From Actinomycetota bacterium (GTDB lineage Bacteria > Actinomycetota > Actinomycetes > Streptosporangiales > Streptosporangiaceae): a stretch of DNA of 45,875 nt. A program made the position numbers and the translations under genes. Location of the stretch: the NCBI GenBank assembly GCA_021324595.1, contig JAJPIV010000100.1, positions 1 to 45,875 of the forward strand. Reading direction: 5' to 3'. Below the pieces are notes generated by a model. The model made no database searches. It was not told the origin of the DNA and worked only from the letters and a program-made list of their open reading frames with translations. This document shows positions 776 through 32,217 of this stretch, piece by piece; position 1 is the first letter of the stretch, and each line of letters starts with the position of its first letter.

Positions 776-1459
776 GTGCGGGGCAGCGTCAACCGGCGGC
801 CAGCGCCCGACGCGCGGCCAGACGGGCGCTCGGCCCGCGCCGACCGGACCCGCGCGCGGGTGCTGGAAGCCGCCCGCCGGCTGTTCGCCGCCCGCGGCTA
901 CGCGGCGACTAGCATCGAGGCGGTCGCGGCGGCGGCCGGGGTCTCGGCGGAGACGATCTACAAGCGGTTCCGGAACAAGCGCAATCTGCTGCTCGCCGTC
1001 CTGGAGGGCCAGGTGGTGCCGGCCGGGCCGCCGCAGGAGTCCGCCACCGGCTTCCTCGCCGCGCCTGGGCTCAGCCGGGTGCGGGCGATGGCCAGCCAGC
1101 GCGACCAGGTGCGCGCGCTCGCCGCGTTCTCCCGCTCGGTGCTCCAGCGCGCGGCCCCCCTGCACGCGGTGCTCCGGGCCGCCGCCGCGGCCGACCCCGA
1201 GCTCGCTGGCGTGCTGCATGCCGACCACCAGGCGCGGCTGCGCGCCCAGCGCGGGCTCATCGACATGCTGGCCAGCCGCGGCCCGCTGCGCGAGGGCCTG
1301 ACCCGGGACGAGGCGGCCGGCACCTATTCGGCGCTGGCCAGCCCCGAGCTGTTCACCCTGGTGACGACCGCTCATGGCTGGAGCCCCGAGCGGTACGAGG
1401 CCTGGCTGGCCGACACGCTGACCCTGCTTCTGCTGCCGCCGCCGGGCAAGGCCCCGTAG
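776..1459 (+). CDS. TetR/AcrR-family transcriptional regulator
   Basis: This is a 227-residue protein with a typical TetR N-terminal DNA-binding domain at about residues 25-75. The stretch RVLEAARRLFAARGYAATS is followed by the helix-turn-helix and the motif SAETIYKRFRNKRNLL. The C-terminal ligand-binding part is helical and alanine-rich and gives no ligand clue. The start is GTG, seven bases after a -10-like TACTGT and with no Shine-Dalgarno sequence, suggesting a leaderless mRNA. Overlapping palindromes directly upstream suggest autoregulation and control of the divergent MBL-fold hydrolase. The family call is secure; the target and effector are unknown. Confidence 0.9.
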   Translation: MRGSVNRRPAPDARPDGRSARADRTRARVLEAARRLFAARGYAATSIEAVAAAAGVSAETIYKRFRNKRNLLLAVLEGQVVPAGPPQESATGFLAAPGLSRVRAMASQRDQVRALAAFSRSVLQRAAPLHAVLRAAAAADPELAGVLHADHQARLRAQRGLIDMLASRGPLREGLTRDEAAGTYSALASPELFTLVTTAHGWSPERYEAWLADTLTLLLLPPPGKAP

Positions 1460-1585
1460 CCCCGCGGCCCGCGGGACGGCCCCTGCCCCAGAGGATCGGC
1501 CGCGGATCTGCCAGGCCATCGGCGCCATCAATGGCTGTTCCCTCGGCCAGATGTCCGTCACCAGTCAGGGGTCGGGGTTGGTTGA

Positions 1586-2119
1586 TCATGCTGGCTGGGG
1601 TGGCATCCAGGGGTTGCCGTTGAGGGCGTCGCGGATAGCGGCGAGGGGGTGGTGGCCGTGGCTGCGGGCGGTGGTGAGGCAGGAGCGGATGCGGCAGTGG
1701 CGCTGGAGGGTGGCGAGGGTGCGCCAGCAGCCGCCGGCCGCCGGTCACCCCCGGCGGCGGGACCGCGGCCGTGACCCGCCCGCACCCGCAGGCGCGGCTC
1801 ATCATGCGGTACTCGGTCACCGTCAGCGCGGGCGGCGGCATGTCATGCACCTGCACCGCGGACGCGACCCGCCCCGGAGCCCCCGACAGTTCCGCCCCGC
1901 ATCCGCCGCAGGCACCCGGCTCGACGGCCACGATCTGATCCGGCCGCGCCGGCCAGGCCAGGCTCGCGCCCCCCGGCGCAGCGCCGCCGCCTCGGCCCGC
2001 AGCGACCCGACCAGCGCGGCCTGCTCCGCCACCACCGCCAGCAGCTCAGCGACCCGCGCGGCCAGCTCCGCGTTCGAGTCAGCCAGCTCCTCATACGACG
2101 GCTGCCCCAAAGGGGGCAT
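1586..2119 (-). pseudogene. IS66-family transposase relic with the catalytic middle deleted
   Basis: Three pieces of an IS66 transposase follow each other on the minus strand in different frames. From 2119 comes the N-terminal leucine-zipper-like region (SYEELADSNAELAARVAELL). Next comes the zinc-binding region with CGGCGAEL and later CGCGRV. Last is the conserved C-terminus, readable as GCWRTLATLQRHCRIRS and then GNPWMPPQPA before TGA at 1586-1588. Intact members are roughly 450-550 residues; here the DDE catalytic core is missing and frames shift between pieces. No clear terminal inverted repeats were found. It is a dead element next to the SNF2 gene pair. Confidence 0.8.
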
Positions 2120-2271: not shown

Positions 2272-5200
2272 ATGGCACGGCTCGAAGAGCTTACGAAGGG
2301 CGCCCTGGTCCGGGGCATCCTGGGTGAACGGGTCGTCAAGGTGGTTGACGCGGCCTGGCACGGCTCCAGCGCAATCACGCTGATCTACGCCGACGTGGCG
2401 ACGGGCAGGGTGGACCGGGAACTGCTGTACCGCGACGACGAGCCCAGGCTGAGCGTGGATCAGCCCGGGCCGTCCTGGGACATGAGCGGCGACGGCCGGA
2501 TGTTCCGGCTCGTGTCCGAGGCCGAGCGGATCTCGCTGGCTTATCTGTTCGATCCGTTCCTGGCGGTTCAAACCTCCAATCTCGACCCGCTGCCGCATCA
2601 GATCGAGGCGGTGTACGAGAAGATGCTGCCGCGTCAGCCGCTGCGGTACCTGCTCGCCGACGACCCAGGTGCCGGGAAGACGATCATGGCGGGGCTGTAC
2701 TGCAAGGAGCTGATGGCGCGAGGCGACGTCGAGCGGTGCCTGGTGATCGCGCCGGGGAGCCTCGTGGGGCAGTGGCAGGACGAGCTGTGGGAGAAATTCG
2801 GCCTGTCGTTCGACATCCTGACCCGCGACATGATCGAGGCCACCCGGAGCGGGAACCCGTTTGCCGAGCGGCCGCTGATGATCGCGAGGCTGGACCACCT
2901 GGCGCGGAACGAGGAGCTTCGGGCGAAGCTGGAGATCACCGACTGGGACCTGGTGATCGTGGACGAGGCTCACAAGATGTCCGCGCATCTCGTGAACGGC
3001 GATGTCAAGGAGACCAAGCGGTACCGGCTCGGCCGCCTCGCCGGCTCGGTGGCCCGGCATCTGCTGCTCATGACAGCGACGCCGCACGCGGGGATCGACG
3101 AGGAGTTCCAGCTGTTCCTCGCGCTGCTCGACAGTGACCGCTTCGAGGGCAGGCCGCGGCATGCCGCCAGGTCGGTGGACACCTCCGACCTGATGAGGCG
3201 GCTGGTGAAGGAGTCGCTGCTCACGTTCGACGGCACGCCATTGTTCCCTGAACGGCGCGCCTACACGGCCATCTACCCGCTGTCGGACAGCGAGGTGCTG
3301 CTCTATAAGCGGGTCACCGAGTACGTCCAGGATGAGATGAACCGCGCCGACCGGCTGCGGGCGGCGGGGGAGGGCAGGCGGGGCGCCATCGTGGGCTTCG
3401 CCCTGACGACTCTCCAGCGCCGGCTGGTGTCCTCGCCGGAGGCCATCTACCAGTCGCTCGTCCGGCGGCGCCGGCGGCTGGAGAGCCGCCTCGCCGAGGA
3501 GAGGATCCGCAGGCGGGGCGGCGAGATCGCGGCCGCGCTTGGCACGCCGAGGATCCCGGTCGGCTTCAGCGGCCCGGACGACGACTTCGATGCCGATGAC
3601 CTTCCCGACGGCGAGCTGGAGGACCTGGAGGAGGAGCTGGTTGACGAGGCGTCGGCGGCCAGCACGATCGCAGAGCTTGAGCGCGAGATCGCGACGCTGG
3701 CCGACCTGGAGGACCTTGCCCGCCAGCTGCGCGCCTCCGGCGAGGACCGCAAGTGGGAGGAGCTGGCGGGCCTCCTGCAGCGGACCCCCGAGATGTTCAT
3801 CCCGGGCGGTGGACGGAGGAAGCTGGTCATCTTCAGCGAGCACCGCGACACGCTCAACTACCTGGCCGGCAAGCTGCGTGGCCTGCTCGGCAGCGCCGAG
3901 GCGGTCGTCTGCATTCACGGCGGGATGCCGCGGGAGCAGCGCCGCAAGGTTCAGGAAGCCTTCGTCCAGGACAGGCGAGTGCTGGTGCTCGTGGCGACTG
4001 ACGCGGCCGGCGAGGGCATTAACCTCCAGCGCGCCCATCTGATGATCAACTATGACCTGCCCTGGAACCCGAACCGGATCGAGCAGCGATTCGGGCGGAT
4101 CCACCGAATCGGGCAGACCGAGGTGTGCCATCTGTGGAACCTGGTCGCCGAGGACACCCGCGAGGGTCAGGTGTTCGCGCGGGTGTTCCAGAAGCTCGAA
4201 GAGCAGCGCAGAGCCCTCGGCGACCAGGTCTTCGACGTCCTCGGCGAGGCGTTCCGCGACCGGAGCCTGCGCGACATGCTGATCGAGGCGGTGCGCTATG
4301 AAGAGCAGCCCGAGCGGCGGCGCTACCTGGCCACGGTCGTGGACGAGACCATCGGGGAGAGGCTGCGCGACGTCGTGCATGAGCGGGCACTGGTCAGCGA
4401 CGTGATGACGGCCGCGGACGTCGAGCGCATCCGGGACGAGATGGACCGCGCTGAGCTGCGCCGGCTGCAACCGCAGTTCGTGCAGTCGTTCTTCCTGGCG
4501 GCGTTCGAGCACCTCGGCGGGGTCCTTCGCGAGCGCGAGCCCGGGCGCTTTGAGATCACGAGGGTTCCCGCCGAGATGTGCCGGCGCGACCGGCAGGTCG
4601 GCACGAGGGCGCCGGTGATGCAGCGATACGAGCGGGTGACGTTCGAGAAGGGCCTCATCACCATGAAGGGCCGGCCGCAGGCTGAATACCTGGCTCCCGG
4701 CCACCCGCTGCTCGAGGTAGCGATCGACCTGATCATCGAGCGCCATCGCAATGCCCTGCAGCGGGGGGCCGTGCTGGTCGATGAGAGCGACCACGGCTGC
4801 GTGCCGTCCGTGCTGGTCTACCTGAAGCACTCGGTGGTCGATGGCCGGGCCGGCGCGGCGGGCGACCGCCGGGTCGTCTCCGAGCGCTTCGAGTTCGTCA
4901 CCGTCGGCCCGGACGGGACGGTGCGCGGCGCAGGTTGGGCTCCCTACCTCGACCTCCGCCCGGCGACGCCGGGTGAATTCAGCCTGCTGGCCGACGTCAA
5001 GCGCGGTGCCTGGCTGCGCGCCGGCTTGGAGGAAGCCGCGATCGGCTATGGCGTGGAACGCGGCCGGCTGCACCTGGAGGAGGTCCGGCGGAGGTGCCTG
5101 GACCGCATCGACCGGACCGCGCGGGCCGTGAGGGCCAGGCTTGAGTCGGAGATCCAGTACTGGGACCACCGGGCCCGCCAGCTCAGAGAACGCGAGGAGG

Positions 5201-5802
5201 CCGGCAAGCTGCCCAGGAGCGGGATGAACTCCGCGAGGGCGCGCCAGCGGGCAGAGGAGCTGCAGGTGCGGCTGAGGCGCAGGCTTGAGCAGCTGGATGC
5301 CGAGCGGCAGCTGTCCTCTCTCCCGCCCGTCGTGGCCGGCGGCGCGCTGGTTGTCCCGGCGGGCTTGCTCGCATCGCTTGGCGGTGCCGACGCCGACGGC
5401 ATCGCGCGGCGAGCGCAAGACCGCCGCGCCACGGACCGGGCCGCGGTCGAGGCCGTCCTGGAGACTGAGCGGGCCCTGGGCCGCAGCCCCGCCAAGGCGC
5501 CTTCCGATCGCCCGGAGTGCGACGTCGAGAGCAGGAGCGCCGACGGCCGCCAGCTGTTCATCAAGGTCAAGGCGAGGGCAGCCGGCTCGGAGACGTTCAC
5601 CGTCTCCAGGAGCGAGATCGGCGCCGCGCGGAACAAGCCCGATCAGCACATCCTGGCGCTGGTGGAGGCGCCGCCGGGCCGGCAGCCAGCGGTCCGGTAC
5701 CTGAGGCGGGCCTTCCACGACGTCGCGGGCGTCTCCTTCGACACTGCGGCCGTCAGCCTCCCCTGGCGCCCCTACTTCGACCGGGCCGAGGCACCGTCCT
5801 GA
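2272..5802 (+). CDS. SNF2/RapA-type helicase with C-terminal DUF3883-like domain
   Basis: A 1176-residue superfamily 2 ATPase. Walker A (LADDPGAGKT) lies near residues 128-138, DEAH near 230, TATPH near 266, and the C-terminal helicase lobe has VIFSEHRDT near 518, ATDAAGEGINLQ near 575 and QRFGRIHRIGQ near 605-615. Residues about 1082-1145 (FIKVKARAAGSETFTVSRSEI and what follows) resemble DUF3883, a domain common on defence-associated helicases. I chose ATG 2272, giving MARLEELTKGALVRG, because GGAG sits five bases upstream; the frame is open 138 bases further. The architecture is seen in anti-phage islands and overlaps DrmD-like helicases of DISARM, but no methyltransferase or other Drm partner is present. 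ATP-dependent DNA translocation is expected; the role is unknown. Confidence 0.88.
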   Translation: MARLEELTKGALVRGILGERVVKVVDAAWHGSSAITLIYADVATGRVDRELLYRDDEPRLSVDQPGPSWDMSGDGRMFRLVSEAERISLAYLFDPFLAVQTSNLDPLPHQIEAVYEKMLPRQPLRYLLADDPGAGKTIMAGLYCKELMARGDVERCLVIAPGSLVGQWQDELWEKFGLSFDILTRDMIEATRSGNPFAERPLMIARLDHLARNEELRAKLEITDWDLVIVDEAHKMSAHLVNGDVKETKRYRLGRLAGSVARHLLLMTATPHAGIDEEFQLFLALLDSDRFEGRPRHAARSVDTSDLMRRLVKESLLTFDGTPLFPERRAYTAIYPLSDSEVLLYKRVTEYVQDEMNRADRLRAAGEGRRGAIVGFALTTLQRRLVSSPEAIYQSLVRRRRRLESRLAEERIRRRGGEIAAALGTPRIPVGFSGPDDDFDADDLPDGELEDLEEELVDEASAASTIAELEREIATLADLEDLARQLRASGEDRKWEELAGLLQRTPEMFIPGGGRRKLVIFSEHRDTLNYLAGKLRGLLGSAEAVVCIHGGMPREQRRKVQEAFVQDRRVLVLVATDAAGEGINLQRAHLMINYDLPWNPNRIEQRFGRIHRIGQTEVCHLWNLVAEDTREGQVFARVFQKLEEQRRALGDQVFDVLGEAFRDRSLRDMLIEAVRYEEQPERRRYLATVVDETIGERLRDVVHERALVSDVMTAADVERIRDEMDRAELRRLQPQFVQSFFLAAFEHLGGVLREREPGRFEITRVPAEMCRRDRQVGTRAPVMQRYERVTFEKGLITMKGRPQAEYLAPGHPLLEVAIDLIIERHRNALQRGAVLVDESDHGCVPSVLVYLKHSVVDGRAGAAGDRRVVSERFEFVTVGPDGTVRGAGWAPYLDLRPATPGEFSLLADVKRGAWLRAGLEEAAIGYGVERGRLHLEEVRRRCLDRIDRTARAVRARLESEIQYWDHRARQLREREEAGKLPRSGMNSARARQRAEELQVRLRRRLEQLDAERQLSSLPPVVAGGALVVPAGLLASLGGADADGIARRAQDRRATDRAAVEAVLETERALGRSPAKAPSDRPECDVESRSADGRQLFIKVKARAAGSETFTVSRSEIGAARNKPDQHILALVEAPPGRQPAVRYLRRAFHDVAGVSFDTAAVSLPWRPYFDRAEAPS

Positions 5803-5857
5803 CGGCCGGTCAGCAGCCGCCCCGCGCCTGCATCACCCCGGCCAGACCTGAACGCGA

Positions 5858-8203
5858 ATGGTGACAAGCAGCAGCATGGACAACCCCCATGGCCCCGCCC
5901 GGGAGTTCGCTCGGACCGGCAGCCCCGCCGATGCCACGGTGCCCTCGCCGAGATCCTCGGAAGGCGGATCACCCGCGCATGCCATCGAGCCGGGGCGGCT
6001 CCCGCTGAGGCCGGGCGGGGCGAGCCGCGCGCTGGTCTCTGACGCCCGCAGGCTGCAGGGCCAGATCTCCGGCCTGCTCGCCGAGCCCTCCGCGCGGCGC
6101 GCGGCCGCGCGGAGGGCCTTCGACGCGGTGCGCGACGCCACCGTCCGCCAGCAGCTGCACGCGATGCCGCTGGAGCGCCTGAAGGAGACCACCGAGGGCC
6201 GGCTCAGGCTGGGGATGATCGAACGGGCCGGCTACCGGACGGTGGGCGCAGCCGCGGCCGCCGGGCGGCACCGGCTGGAGCAGCTGAACGGGGTGGGCCC
6301 GCAGACCGCGTCGAAGGTGATCGGCGCGGCGCTCCAAGTCCAGCAGGCGCTGCGGCAGACCGTCCGGGTACGGATCGACGCGGACCGCAGGCCGGAGCTT
6401 CACGCGAAGCTCCTCGGCGAACTCCGCGCCTTCGACCTGGCCGAGTCATCGGTCGCGCCGCTGCGCGACGGCATGACCGGGCTCAATGGCCGGCTGGACC
6501 TGATCATCCCCGATGCCCGCCGCGCTGCCAGCCGGCTGCGGATGTTCTTCTCCAGCCCGCGCCGCCGCGAGGAGGCGCGCGAGGCGCTCAGGCAGCTGGA
6601 CTTGCTCGTCTCGTCGCCGGAGTACGCGATGGTCCTCGGGCAGGTGGAGAAGGCGCAGGCCATTCTCCGGCAGCCAAGGCCCGGAGCCGCGGAGCTGTGG
6701 GAGGACTACGAGAGGCGGCCCATTGCCTACAACGGCCGGCTCATCGAGATCGGCGAGCTGGCGGCCGGCGCCGAGGCCGGCCAGGGCTTCCTGCCTTCCG
6801 ATGTCGCGTCGCGAGTCCGTGAGCACCCGCTCGACCTGAGCCTGCTGAAGGTCCCGCTGCGCGGCTACCAGGCGTTCGGCGCGAAGTTCGCCCTGGCCCA
6901 GGGCAAGACGATCCTCGGCGACGAGATGGGGCTCGGCAAGACCATCGAGGCGCTGGCCGCGATGTGCCACCTCCGTTCCCGCGGCGCCACCCACTTCCTG
7001 GTCGTCTGCCCGGCCAGCGTCCTCATCAACTGGGCGTACGAGATCCGCGGGCACAGCGAGTTGCAGTCTTACCGGCTGCACGGCGCCGACCGGGACCTGA
7101 ACCTCCGGGCCTGGGCTCACCGGGGCGGGGTGGCCGTCACCACCTACGAGTCGCTCCGCTCGCTCCGCAGGCCCGCCGGAGTCCAGCTCGGCATGCTGGT
7201 GGCCGACGAGGCCCACTACGTGAAGAACCCGGCCGCCGCGCGGACCAAGGCCGTGCGCTCCTGGGCAGGAGCCACCGACCGGGTCCTGTTCCTCACCGGG
7301 ACGCCGCTGGAGAACCGCGTCGACGAGTTCCGGTCGCTGGTCGGCCACCTGCGGCCCGACGTGGCCGCCCGCGTCAATTCGGTGGACAGCCTCCTGGGCG
7401 CGCCCCGGTTCCGCCAGGCACTCGCGCAGGTCTACCTGCGGCGGAATCAAGAAGACGTGTTGGACGAGCTGCCGCCGCTGATCGAGTCGGAGGAGTGGGT
7501 CGAGTTGGAGGGCCCGGCGCTGGCCGCGTACCGGGATGCCGTCGCCTCGGGCAACTTCATGGCCATGCGCCGGGCCGCGTACGCGCCGGCGACCAGGGAA
7601 GGATCGGCCAAGCTCGCCCGGCTGGCGGAGATCGCCGAGGAAGCATCGGACAACAACCGGAAGGTGGTCGTCTTCTCCTACTTCCTCGACGTCCTCCAGG
7701 CCGCAGGGGCGGTGCTCGGCAATCTCGCGGTCGGCCCGCTGACCGGCAGCATCCCCGCTCAGAAGCGGCAAGGGCTGATCGACGAATTTGCCGCCCGCAA
7801 GGGGCCAGCCGTGCTGGTCAGCCAGATCCAGGCAGGCGGGGTGGGGCTGAACATCCAGGCCGCTTCGGTCGTCATACTCGCCGAGCCGCAGTGGAAGCCG
7901 ACGATCGAGGAGCAGGCGATCGCGCGGTGCCACCGCATGGGCCAGGTCCACTCGGTCGATGTGCACCGGCTCCTGGCGGAGGACAGCGTCGACCGCAGGA
8001 TGCTGGAGATCCTCGCCGCGAAGTCGGTCCTCATCGACGAGTACGTTCGCCGGAGCGAGCTGAAGGACCTCGCTCCGGACGCCGTCGACGTCTCCGACCT
8101 CAGGAAGACCCAGGAAGCGGTCAGCCAGGCGGAGGCCGAGCGCCGGATCGTCGAGGCGGAGCGCAAGCGCCTGCGCCTGGAATCGGAAGGCGCGCCCGGC
8201 TGA
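5858..8203 (+). CDS. SNF2-family DNA-dependent ATPase with helix-hairpin-helix
   Basis: A 781-residue protein 55 bases downstream of the first helicase, on the same strand and probably cotranscribed. The N-terminal 330 residues are not a known enzyme domain but contain a helix-hairpin-helix (LNGVGPQTASKVIGAAL, about 143-160), a DNA-backbone-binding element. The SNF2 core follows: DEMGLGKT near 355-362, DEAH near 450, TGTPLENR near 480, FSYFLDVL near 605, QAGGVGLNIQ near 657 and ARCHRMGQ near 688. The C-terminus is a charged helix. The start is uncertain because no ribosome binding site precedes ATG 5858; ATG 5876 is possible. It probably acts on branched or modified DNA together with its neighbour (inference). 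Confidence 0.87.
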   Translation: MVTSSSMDNPHGPAREFARTGSPADATVPSPRSSEGGSPAHAIEPGRLPLRPGGASRALVSDARRLQGQISGLLAEPSARRAAARRAFDAVRDATVRQQLHAMPLERLKETTEGRLRLGMIERAGYRTVGAAAAAGRHRLEQLNGVGPQTASKVIGAALQVQQALRQTVRVRIDADRRPELHAKLLGELRAFDLAESSVAPLRDGMTGLNGRLDLIIPDARRAASRLRMFFSSPRRREEAREALRQLDLLVSSPEYAMVLGQVEKAQAILRQPRPGAAELWEDYERRPIAYNGRLIEIGELAAGAEAGQGFLPSDVASRVREHPLDLSLLKVPLRGYQAFGAKFALAQGKTILGDEMGLGKTIEALAAMCHLRSRGATHFLVVCPASVLINWAYEIRGHSELQSYRLHGADRDLNLRAWAHRGGVAVTTYESLRSLRRPAGVQLGMLVADEAHYVKNPAAARTKAVRSWAGATDRVLFLTGTPLENRVDEFRSLVGHLRPDVAARVNSVDSLLGAPRFRQALAQVYLRRNQEDVLDELPPLIESEEWVELEGPALAAYRDAVASGNFMAMRRAAYAPATREGSAKLARLAEIAEEASDNNRKVVVFSYFLDVLQAAGAVLGNLAVGPLTGSIPAQKRQGLIDEFAARKGPAVLVSQIQAGGVGLNIQAASVVILAEPQWKPTIEEQAIARCHRMGQVHSVDVHRLLAEDSVDRRMLEILAAKSVLIDEYVRRSELKDLAPDAVDVSDLRKTQEAVSQAEAERRIVEAERKRLRLESEGAPG

Positions 8204-31469: not shown

Positions 31470-31895
31470 CTAGACCGAGAACGGGCTGCGGACCTGGACG
31501 CCCTCGTATCCTTGGCCCGGATTCAGATCCTCCGAATGCACGGTCTTGCAGCCGAGCTGCTGTGCGCTGCGGAGGATCATCGCGTCCCAGAACGACGTTC
31601 CGGCTCGCTGATGGATGTCGATGGCCGCGAGCACATCGCTGGCGGAGGGAGCATGCACGTGCCAGTGCGCCAGGTCCTCGACGATCCGCGCGGCCGCCGG
31701 CACGTCGAGCGGCCTGGCGATCTTCCGCGTCGTGATGACGAAGAACTCTTGCAGCACCTGAACGCTCAGGCAGCCCTCCCGCGTGCCCCACAGTTCCTCC
31801 ACCAGGGCACGTGCCCGGCTGTGCTTGTCTCCCGCCGTCACGTCATGCGCGTAGACGAGAACATTCGTGTCGACGAACTGGCGGTTACCGCTCAT
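31470..31895 (-). CDS. VapC-like PIN-domain toxin
   Basis: A 141-residue PIN-domain protein. The acidic catalytic residues are visible in FVDTNVLVYAHD (first Asp), QEFFVI (Glu), SFWDAMIL (Asp) and HSEDLNPGQ (last Asp). This is the order expected of Mg-dependent RNases of the VapC type. Its start overlaps the antitoxin gene end by 11 bases, giving translational coupling. Such toxins cut tRNA or rRNA when freed from their antitoxin. The pair sits next to a tRNA-derived attachment-site scar, consistent with a mobile-element origin. The acid quartet is intact, so it may be active. Confidence 0.88.
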   Translation of the reverse strand: MSGNRQFVDTNVLVYAHDVTAGDKHSRARALVEELWGTREGCLSVQVLQEFFVITTRKIARPLDVPAAARIVEDLAHWHVHAPSASDVLAAIDIHQRAGTSFWDAMILRSAQQLGCKTVHSEDLNPGQGYEGVQVRSPFSV

Positions 31896-32127
31896 GCAGG
31901 TCTTCCCGCGACCAGGTCACGCGCCCGCCGGTGCCAAGATCCGCGCCCTCGCGCAGCACGGCCAGGCTGTGCTCCTTCGCAGCGTCATATCCCGTCTCCC
32001 GCTCCACGGTCTCGCGGAGCACGCGGGCCAGGAGCTGCGACACCGAGGTACCGCGCCGCGCCGCCAGTATCCGCGCATCCCGCAAGTCCTCCTCGGGAAG
32101 AGACAGCGTGATGTTCTGATTAGCCAC
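31885..32127 (-). CDS. VapB-like antitoxin (ribbon-helix-helix)
   Basis: An 80-residue protein with a short N-terminal strand NITLSLPEEDL followed by helices RDARILAARRGTSVSQLLARVLRETVERE, the ribbon-helix-helix pattern of CopG/VapB-type antitoxins. The C-terminus (SLAVLREGADLGTGGRVTWSREDLHER) would wrap the toxin. GTG 32127 is chosen because GGGTGAG precedes it; the frame continues upstream but its extension lacks family features. An inverted repeat CGTGCT...AGCACG (32149-32154, 32171-32176) around a TACACT -10-like box upstream could be the autoregulatory site. Confidence 0.82.
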   Translation of the reverse strand: MANQNITLSLPEEDLRDARILAARRGTSVSQLLARVLRETVERETGYDAAKEHSLAVLREGADLGTGGRVTWSREDLHER

Positions 32128-32148
32128 CGCGCTCACCCCACGATCCAA

Positions 32149-32176
32149 CGTGCTCCACGCAGGACAGTGTAGCACG
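32149..32176 (-). promoter_or_regulatory. Inverted repeat at the vapBC promoter
   Basis: CGTGCT (32149-32154) and AGCACG (32171-32176) are complementary, with TACACT (minus strand) between them as a possible -10. Autoregulation by a VapBC complex binding here is the usual arrangement; this is inference. Confidence 0.4.
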
Positions 32177-32217
32177 CAACACCGTGAGGCCGTCGGTGCC
32201 AACGGGAGAGATCCCTC

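Follow-up and report, generated by a model that had tools for sequence, protein, structure and literature searches.

The two adjacent ATPase genes of the window (the whole stretch of 45,875 nucleotides analysed here) may constitute a reduced and recurrent derivative of the Hma anti-phage system, a reading to which we assign a probability of about 0.42: a methylase-free, nuclease-dead HmaA would lie in tandem with a second SNF2-family ATPase, and the two proteins would serve as a pair of DNA translocases. We use “SNF2b” as a working name for the second protein of the window and its relatives.

According to this model, HmaA would have left behind the methyltransferase HmaB and the DUF499 ATPase HmaC, would have lost its own C-terminal nuclease active site, and would have come to sit in tandem with SNF2b, and hmaA and SNF2b would be carried on one transcript. 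Both ATPases may act jointly on double-stranded DNA that enters the cell: HmaA would move along the duplex as does RapA; SNF2b would load on the DNA through its helical N-terminal region; and the two motors could dislodge or block the complexes of replication and transcription, or pass the DNA to a host nuclease, with no cutting of their own. The absence of hmaB would then be explained as well, because protective methylation would be unneeded where no active nuclease is present.

Two open genes in a metabolic neighbourhood

The window corresponds to contig C101; the assembly has 4.09 Mb in 168 contigs (96.9% complete, 4.1% contaminated). The DNA of the window has a G+C content of 73%. An earlier note on this DNA had described two large SNF2 ATPase reading frames on one strand, 55 bp apart; both frames are open, and their coordinates hold:

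1356–1931, minus strand: reading frame with the zinc-finger match of an IS66-family transposase remnant upstream of hmaA (PF13005 zf-IS66, E 4e-5, 24.3 bits, under the cut-off of 27.3), the remnant as a whole being placed at 1356–2119
2272–5802, plus strand: hmaA-like gene (protein 1, 1176 aa; PADLOC PDLC00659, Pfam, predicted structure)
2584–3087, plus strand: first ATPase lobe (ResIII/SNF2) of protein 1, Walker A and DEAH present (Pfam PF04851, residues 105–272)
3817–4113, plus strand: second ATPase lobe of protein 1, Helicase_C with motif VI (Pfam PF00271, residues 516–614)
5437–5700, plus strand: NOV_C / PD-(D/E)XK nuclease domain of protein 1, catalytic residue lost (PF13020, residues 1056–1143)
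5563–5565, plus strand: AAG codon of Lys1098 in place of the Glu of the ExK motif (alignment; Glu in 45/46 non-tandem HmaAs)
5803–5857, plus strand: spacer between hmaA and SNF2b, 55 bp
5858–8203, plus strand: SNF2b gene (protein 2, 781 aa; helical N-terminal region and SNF2 ATPase; Pfam, predicted structure)
6218–6322, plus strand: weak helix-hairpin-helix match in the N-terminal region of SNF2b (PF14520, HHH_5, 21.0 bits, cut-off 27)
6866–7942, plus strand: SNF2 core of SNF2b, both ATPase lobes (PF00176, residues 337–573; PF00271, residues 585–695)

The hmaA-like open frame extends back to position 2134. At 73% G+C, and with an antisense ORF of 1160 aa also in the window, long open frames are weak evidence of genes here; we regard both genes as real because of their full-length homology (1501 bits to the HmaA model and 618 bits to PDLC02627). 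Translations and alignments bear out the earlier description of intact Walker A, DEAH and helicase-C (motif VI) motifs in both proteins.

Upstream of hmaA lie the IS66 remnant and a TetR gene; downstream of SNF2b lie genes for RidA, a 2-hydroxyacid dehydrogenase, two ThuA proteins and RraA, and the neighbours are metabolic. PADLOC returned zero matches on 10 other window proteins, and a profile search found no HmaB or HmaC match within the window. As the earlier note had stated, no methyltransferase, nuclease or Drm gene adjoins the pair among the window neighbours scanned with Pfam and PADLOC; the same scans of those neighbours found no drmA, drmB or drmC and no further BREX gene. Elsewhere in the window (31473–32202, minus strand), a PIN-domain gene overlaps a small gene whose DUF6364 match lies below threshold; the two look like a VapBC-type toxin-antitoxin pair.

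Protein 1 is assigned to HmaA

Judged by its sequence, protein 1 is a complete HmaA, which is the RapA-type SNF2 helicase found in Hma, a DUF499 BREX-related anti-phage system: it matches the PADLOC HmaA model (PDLC00659) at 1501 bits over model positions 1–1154 of 1176 and residues 1–1155, and its Pfam domains are SNF2-rel_dom, ResIII, Helicase_C and NOV_C (PF13020, residues 1056–1143). NOV_C, which we take to be the former DUF3883, scores 44.9 bits against a cut-off of 22.1, and the DUF3883 reported previously in this protein is thereby corroborated. The predicted structure (pLDDT 87.3; top five PDB matches all RapA) comprises an N-terminal beta domain, a SNF2/RapA-type ATPase core, a RapA-like middle and a degenerate C-terminal PD-(D/E)XK domain, in which the predicted order of the NOV_C fold is helix-strand-strand-strand-helix-strand. 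Protein 1 is thus not without known defence kin, as HmaA belongs to a described anti-phage system.

In the accessible text of the sources, Hma is a candidate defence system present in 26 phyla (PMC8565338); it is named the Type-1 DUF499-centred BREX-related (BR) system, with experimental phage defence by HmaA cited, the helicase fused to a nuclease in 79% of Type-1 taxa, and different nucleases encoded close by in the remaining taxa (PMC12839542); DUF3883 is identified as an REase domain fused to the HmaA-type SNF2 helicase (PMC3710099); and Hma is placed among nickase-driven systems, with reference to a study that, by its title, attributes defence to the nuclease domain (PMC11890865). The window protein resembles the Type-1 BR helicase in its full length and in its order of N-terminal beta domain (TUDOR in the accessible text of PMC12839542), SNF2 core, middle region and C-terminal PD-(D/E)XK domain, but the window locus differs in that HmaB and HmaC are absent beside HmaA, the nuclease Glu is replaced, and a SNF2 ATPase is placed downstream.

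Other families fit protein 1 less well. Its NCBIfam scores lie under the cut-offs for DrmD (364.7 vs. 610 and 152.8 vs. 950 bits), for DpdE of Dpd (183.5 vs. 500 bits) and for ZorD of Zorya (38 vs. 1500 bits); RapA has the same SNF2/RapA architecture and fold, yet protein 1 scores 165.7 bits against the RapA cut-off of 576. BrxHII of Type-3 BREX shares the SNF2/RapA architecture (PADLOC BrxH, 312.9 bits) but differs in context, no BREX partner gene standing among the scanned window neighbours.

Protein 2 belongs to a mostly solitary SNF2 family

Protein 2 contains SNF2-rel_dom (114.2 bits) and Helicase_C (56.5 bits), and its N-terminal region (residues 54–325) is helical in the predicted model (pLDDT 87.8). 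The SNF2 core aligns to Ino80 (Z 31.8, residues 326–731), and a fold search that covered this core (residues 314–734) matched mostly eukaryotic remodellers. The label “HhH-bearing” given to protein 2 earlier is weakly supported: a match is present, but at 21.0 bits it falls below the HHH_5 cut-off of 27.

The best PADLOC model for protein 2 is PDLC02627, labelled DrmD (618 bits, residues 55–773), and the protein lies below the cut-off in all nine NCBIfam models matched. These include DrmD (78.5 vs. 610 and 87.0 vs. 950 bits), DpdE (86.9 vs. 500 bits), ZorD (94 vs. 1500 bits) and RapA (48.2 vs. 576 bits). Protein 2 is thus like DISARM DrmD in being a SNF2-type ATPase and in its PADLOC label, but differs in its NCBIfam scores and in having no drmA, drmB or drmC among its scanned neighbours. 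By its 618-bit match it is a member of a solitary Actinomycetota SNF2 family (PDLC02627), from which it differs in standing in tandem with HmaA. The relatives of SNF2b are mostly solitary: at 78 of 80 loci from named genomes, nothing hma-like exceeds 100 bits in the available flanks. Across 90 SNF2b loci read with a home-made ORF caller, the SNF2b cluster itself occurs in 85 and the next commonest neighbour family in 13, so that no neighbour family recurs strongly. Lentzea californiensis carries two distinct SNF2b genes (L082, L112).

The pair recurs in other genera, mostly apart from hmaB and hmaC

We searched a class sample of 296 Actinomycetes genomes, own genome included, with an HmaA threshold of E up to 1e-60; these scans scored the best two or three candidates per genome, and second copies can be missed. 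HmaA was found in 25 genomes, SNF2b in 36 and both in 10; the two genes are adjacent in 8 of these 10 (the window included) and megabases apart in the other two (G271, G407). With the own genome set aside, co-occurrence has a hypergeometric p of 6e-4, and chance would be expected to place the genes side by side in about 0.01 of 9 genomes, by which we reject chance adjacency; both figures treat genomes as independent, which they are not. The pairing that the earlier note had proposed to look for is therefore found elsewhere, and the seven further adjacent loci remove the possibility, named there as a refutation, that it occurs in this genome only. At six of those seven, the stretch read contains neither hmaB nor hmaC.

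Outside the class sample the two genes meet rarely. Among 60 relatives, HmaA occurs in 8 genomes, SNF2b in 8, and both in the own genome and G183, where they are 1.1 Mb apart; among 149 phylum genomes, HmaA occurs in 12, SNF2b in 5, and both in the own genome only. Typical HmaA relatives stand in hmaA-hmaB-hmaC operons (e.g. L041–L043). No published description of a methylase-free HmaA-SNF2 pair was found in the accessible text of the literature searched, supplements aside.

Counting the window, SNF2b directly adjoins hmaA at 13 loci; as these came to light by different routes, they do not form a random sample. At six of them the two genes diverge and hmaB is present (L046, L048, L116, L117, L267, L448), the hmaC of these loci being complete, partial, or cut by the end of the contig or stretch. 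Another four (L271, L274, L277, L278) are also divergent, and about 20 kb around them contains neither hmaB nor hmaC, an extra 10 kb having been read on one side for L271, L274 and L277. The remaining three are tandem pairs without hmaB or hmaC: the window, G460 (L280, L322) and G457 (L288, L324, L323), the L323 contig having 3684 identical bases in common with the other G457 pair contig. The tandem pairs span three genera, with a 55-bp gap in the window, a GTGA overlap in G460 and a TGATG overlap in G457, spacings that depend on the start codons chosen.

The link between SNF2b and the absence of hmaB was assessed at 26 hmaA loci from 24 class-sample genomes, with the own genome left out and HmaA pieces on contig C77 of G299 excluded (L454; neither hmaB nor SNF2b in 16 kb). 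SNF2b lies beside 6 of 8 hmaB-less loci vs. 1 of 18 hmaB-bearing loci (Fisher p = 8e-4 for 26 loci whose genomes are not independent). Outside the divergent clade the counts are 2/2 vs. 0/12 (p = 0.01), and inside it 4/6 vs. 1/6 (p = 0.24). The two hmaB-less loci without SNF2b, L279 and L289, hold a truncated hmaA and a fragment. The same counts qualify the idea that relatives of protein 1 always accompany a methyltransferase: they usually do (18 of 26 class-sample loci outside the window), but 8 of 26 lack hmaB.

These loci bear on an explanation that we consider unlikely, namely that SNF2b is an accessory or silencing partner (a helper or a brake) of Hma-type helicases generally, and that the window pair works with modification genes elsewhere in its genome. 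Such a role would account for the divergent SNF2b genes beside the six hmaB-bearing hma loci; against it, SNF2b is absent from 17 of 18 hmaB-bearing class-sample loci and solitary in 78 of 80 loci, and the HmaB and HmaC matches of the own assembly are broken copies on C139 and C31 only.

A phage-borne module was also considered and rejected. No phage record matches HmaA at E 1e-30; the viral-labelled HmaA relatives (L158–L170, 13 of 80 loci) have HmaB in 10 cases and SNF2b in none; and among the best 80 viral-labelled SNF2b relatives L342 alone is close (49% identity), the others having 33% identity or less.

The tandem HmaAs have lost nuclease residues and kept the helicase core

We aligned the nuclease region of 50 HmaAs, of which 47 are non-tandem and 46 non-tandem rows have letters at the motif. 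In these rows the PD-(D/E)XK residues are nearly invariant: Asp1084 in 46/46, Glu1098 in 45/46 and Lys1100 in 46/46. The single non-tandem HmaA without the Glu is the second copy in L027 (8302–15371, G119), where two tandem hmaA genes lie upstream of hmaB and the second has Gly for the catalytic Glu (FIGVK).

All three HmaAs of the tandem pairs have lost PD-(D/E)XK catalytic residues or the whole domain; for protein 1, this damage is missing from the earlier note. The motif is Asp, Lys, Lys in the window (Glu to Lys, with Asp and Lys kept) and Val, Asp, Ala in G460 (all three residues replaced), whereas in G457 the Asp is Pro and the ExK part is missing as a gap. Conserved helicase columns are kept at 209/218 in the window, 213/218 in G460 and 210/218 in G457, vs. 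17/20, 9/20 and 4/20 conserved nuclease columns, respectively. The helicase cores of the tandem HmaAs are still constrained, and the aligned residues show clearly that the G460 and G457 proteins no longer have the nuclease. The window protein has changed only at the catalytic Glu and at two further conserved positions, and the change of Glu to Lys could be recent drift or a consensus error; with Lys at the catalytic Glu, the window HmaA is predicted to lack the active C-terminal nuclease expected of a Type-1 BR helicase.

The divergent pairs L271, L274 and L277 (G337, G249 and G383), with no hmaB or hmaC nearby, have an intact ExK motif, which shows that methylase loss alone does not bring nuclease loss. 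In the fourth divergent pair of this kind (L278, G278), the HmaA match stops at residue 1047 and holds 2 TGA codons, and the SNF2b match holds 1 TGA; by these stops the pair looks like decay.

Decay is the strongest alternative to a functional module

Decay of an Hma locus is the strongest alternative for the window itself, and we regard it as a serious, if tentative, possibility: hmaB and hmaC would have been lost, possibly via IS66, and an orphan hmaA would be drifting, nuclease first, beside a solitary housekeeping or repair SNF2b. The sub-threshold IS66 zinc-finger remnant upstream of hmaA, the lost catalytic Glu, the complete hma locus around the nearest HmaA kin (G131), and the stops in the G278 pair are all consistent with this explanation; and the credit given to the nuclease for defence, so far as the accessible text of PMC11890865 goes, weighs against HmaA function after nuclease loss.

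The own assembly (G000) also holds a second hma locus, split over contigs C102 (L030), C139 (L031) and C31 (L287), which share exactly 106 and 107 bases where their ends overlap. Stops interrupt the hmaA of this locus twice on C102 and once on C139, its hmaB is spread over several frames, and a frameshift breaks its hmaC; across the assembly, HmaB matches are confined to the broken copy on C139 and HmaC matches to pieces on C139 and C31. The HmaA of this locus falls in a different clade from the window HmaA, and its binning is not certain in view of the 4.1% contamination of the assembly. Together with the IS66 remnant, the broken locus suggests that decay is happening in the own lineage.

However, the contrast within this one assembly also counts against decay of the window pair: the second locus is broken in all three genes, whereas the window pair is open, its hmaA having 1176 stop-free codons and 209 of 218 helicase columns kept. 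Moreover, the same arrangement and nuclease loss are seen in two other genera, with overlapping reading frames, and the two genes lie next to each other in 8 of the 10 class-sample genomes where both occur. We rank a functional two-ATPase module above decay because the arrangement recurs in G457 and G460, where the reading frames overlap; this recurrence supports the module for the window only by analogy, and the base of support is limited to three tandem pairs.

Tandem pairs probably arose at least twice

The HmaA tree, which leaves out the distant rows L171, L172 and L290 and for which matches shorter than 1500 bases were not collected, groups the window HmaA with Hma-type HmaAs, its nearest relative being that of G131, in a full hma locus. 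The HmaAs of G460 and G457 group together on long branches with a support of 98. In a quick tree of 26 chosen rows, the log-likelihood falls by 85.7 units when the three tandem HmaAs are forced to be monophyletic, and a single origin is rejected by the AU test (p-AU = 5.6e-7). The SNF2b partners scatter among solitary SNF2b proteins: that of the window falls with its nearest relatives L051–L054, which are solitary; that of G457 groups with three solitary relatives of its own family; and that of G460 stands apart on a long branch. As the one-clade HmaA tree is rejected and the SNF2b partners occupy separate places, the tandem nuclease-degenerate pair must have had two or more origins, barring repeated loss of pairs.

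A broader generalization, which we think rather unlikely, is that HmaA lineages more than once dropped HmaB, HmaC and the nuclease site and became coupled to a captured SNF2 protein, giving a two-motor immunity that would rely on no methyl mark and on no nuclease within the module. If true, pure DNA translocation would be a sufficient anti-phage effector. Current models of Hma/BR and BREX systems have methylation protecting self-DNA and nucleases carrying out restriction; a derivative without methylation or nuclease would offer a small two-gene test of whether translocation alone stops phage. The loci would also form a natural series (complete hma, hma with SNF2b, HmaA-SNF2b with the nuclease, and HmaA-SNF2b without it) from which the order of loss of defence parts could be read.

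Defence context of the pairs

The earlier note asked whether the pair sits in defence islands, and one tandem pair does. In G460 (G460:C1:304000-337900; L280 and L322), genes for HNH, a C5 methyltransferase, DrmC, DrmB, DrmA, DrmMI and DrmD lie beside the pair on the same contig, a Drm set that is presumably a class I DISARM, and a GmrSD-type gene lies upstream of the pair. The scanned neighbours of the window pair are metabolic and gave no PADLOC match. Of the divergent pairs, L274 is flanked on both sides, at distances of up to about 3.5 kb, by matches to HEC-01B and PDC-S57, two candidate defence models. The scanned neighbours of the pairs in G337 (one) and G457 (two) gave no PADLOC match, and those in G383 and G278 (one each) are metabolic by Pfam and not defence-like.

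A role outside defence, in which the two translocases would together serve DNA repair or remove stalled RNA polymerase in the manner of RapA, would suit the best fold matches, which are RapA for protein 1 and, for the SNF2 core of protein 2, mainly remodellers of eukaryotes. We consider it very improbable: HmaA belongs to a phage-defence system in the accessible text of PMC8565338 and PMC12839542; presence is patchy, neither hmaA nor SNF2b being found in four genus mates (77–98% complete); and the G460 pair lies inside the DISARM/GmrSD island.

Further genes were seen beside these loci. Directly downstream of the HmaA-SNF2b pair on one G457 contig (L323, 10874–14231, minus strand; G457:C142) lies an AAA ATPase gene, presumably STAND-like, followed by a gene for a 510-aa protein without a Pfam match. 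In L443 (8437–10125), a large gene annotated DUF262 lies inside the hma operon; the hma operon of G131 (L025, 6801–8642, minus strand) likewise contains a large gene, whose start looks similar to that of the L443 DUF262 gene.
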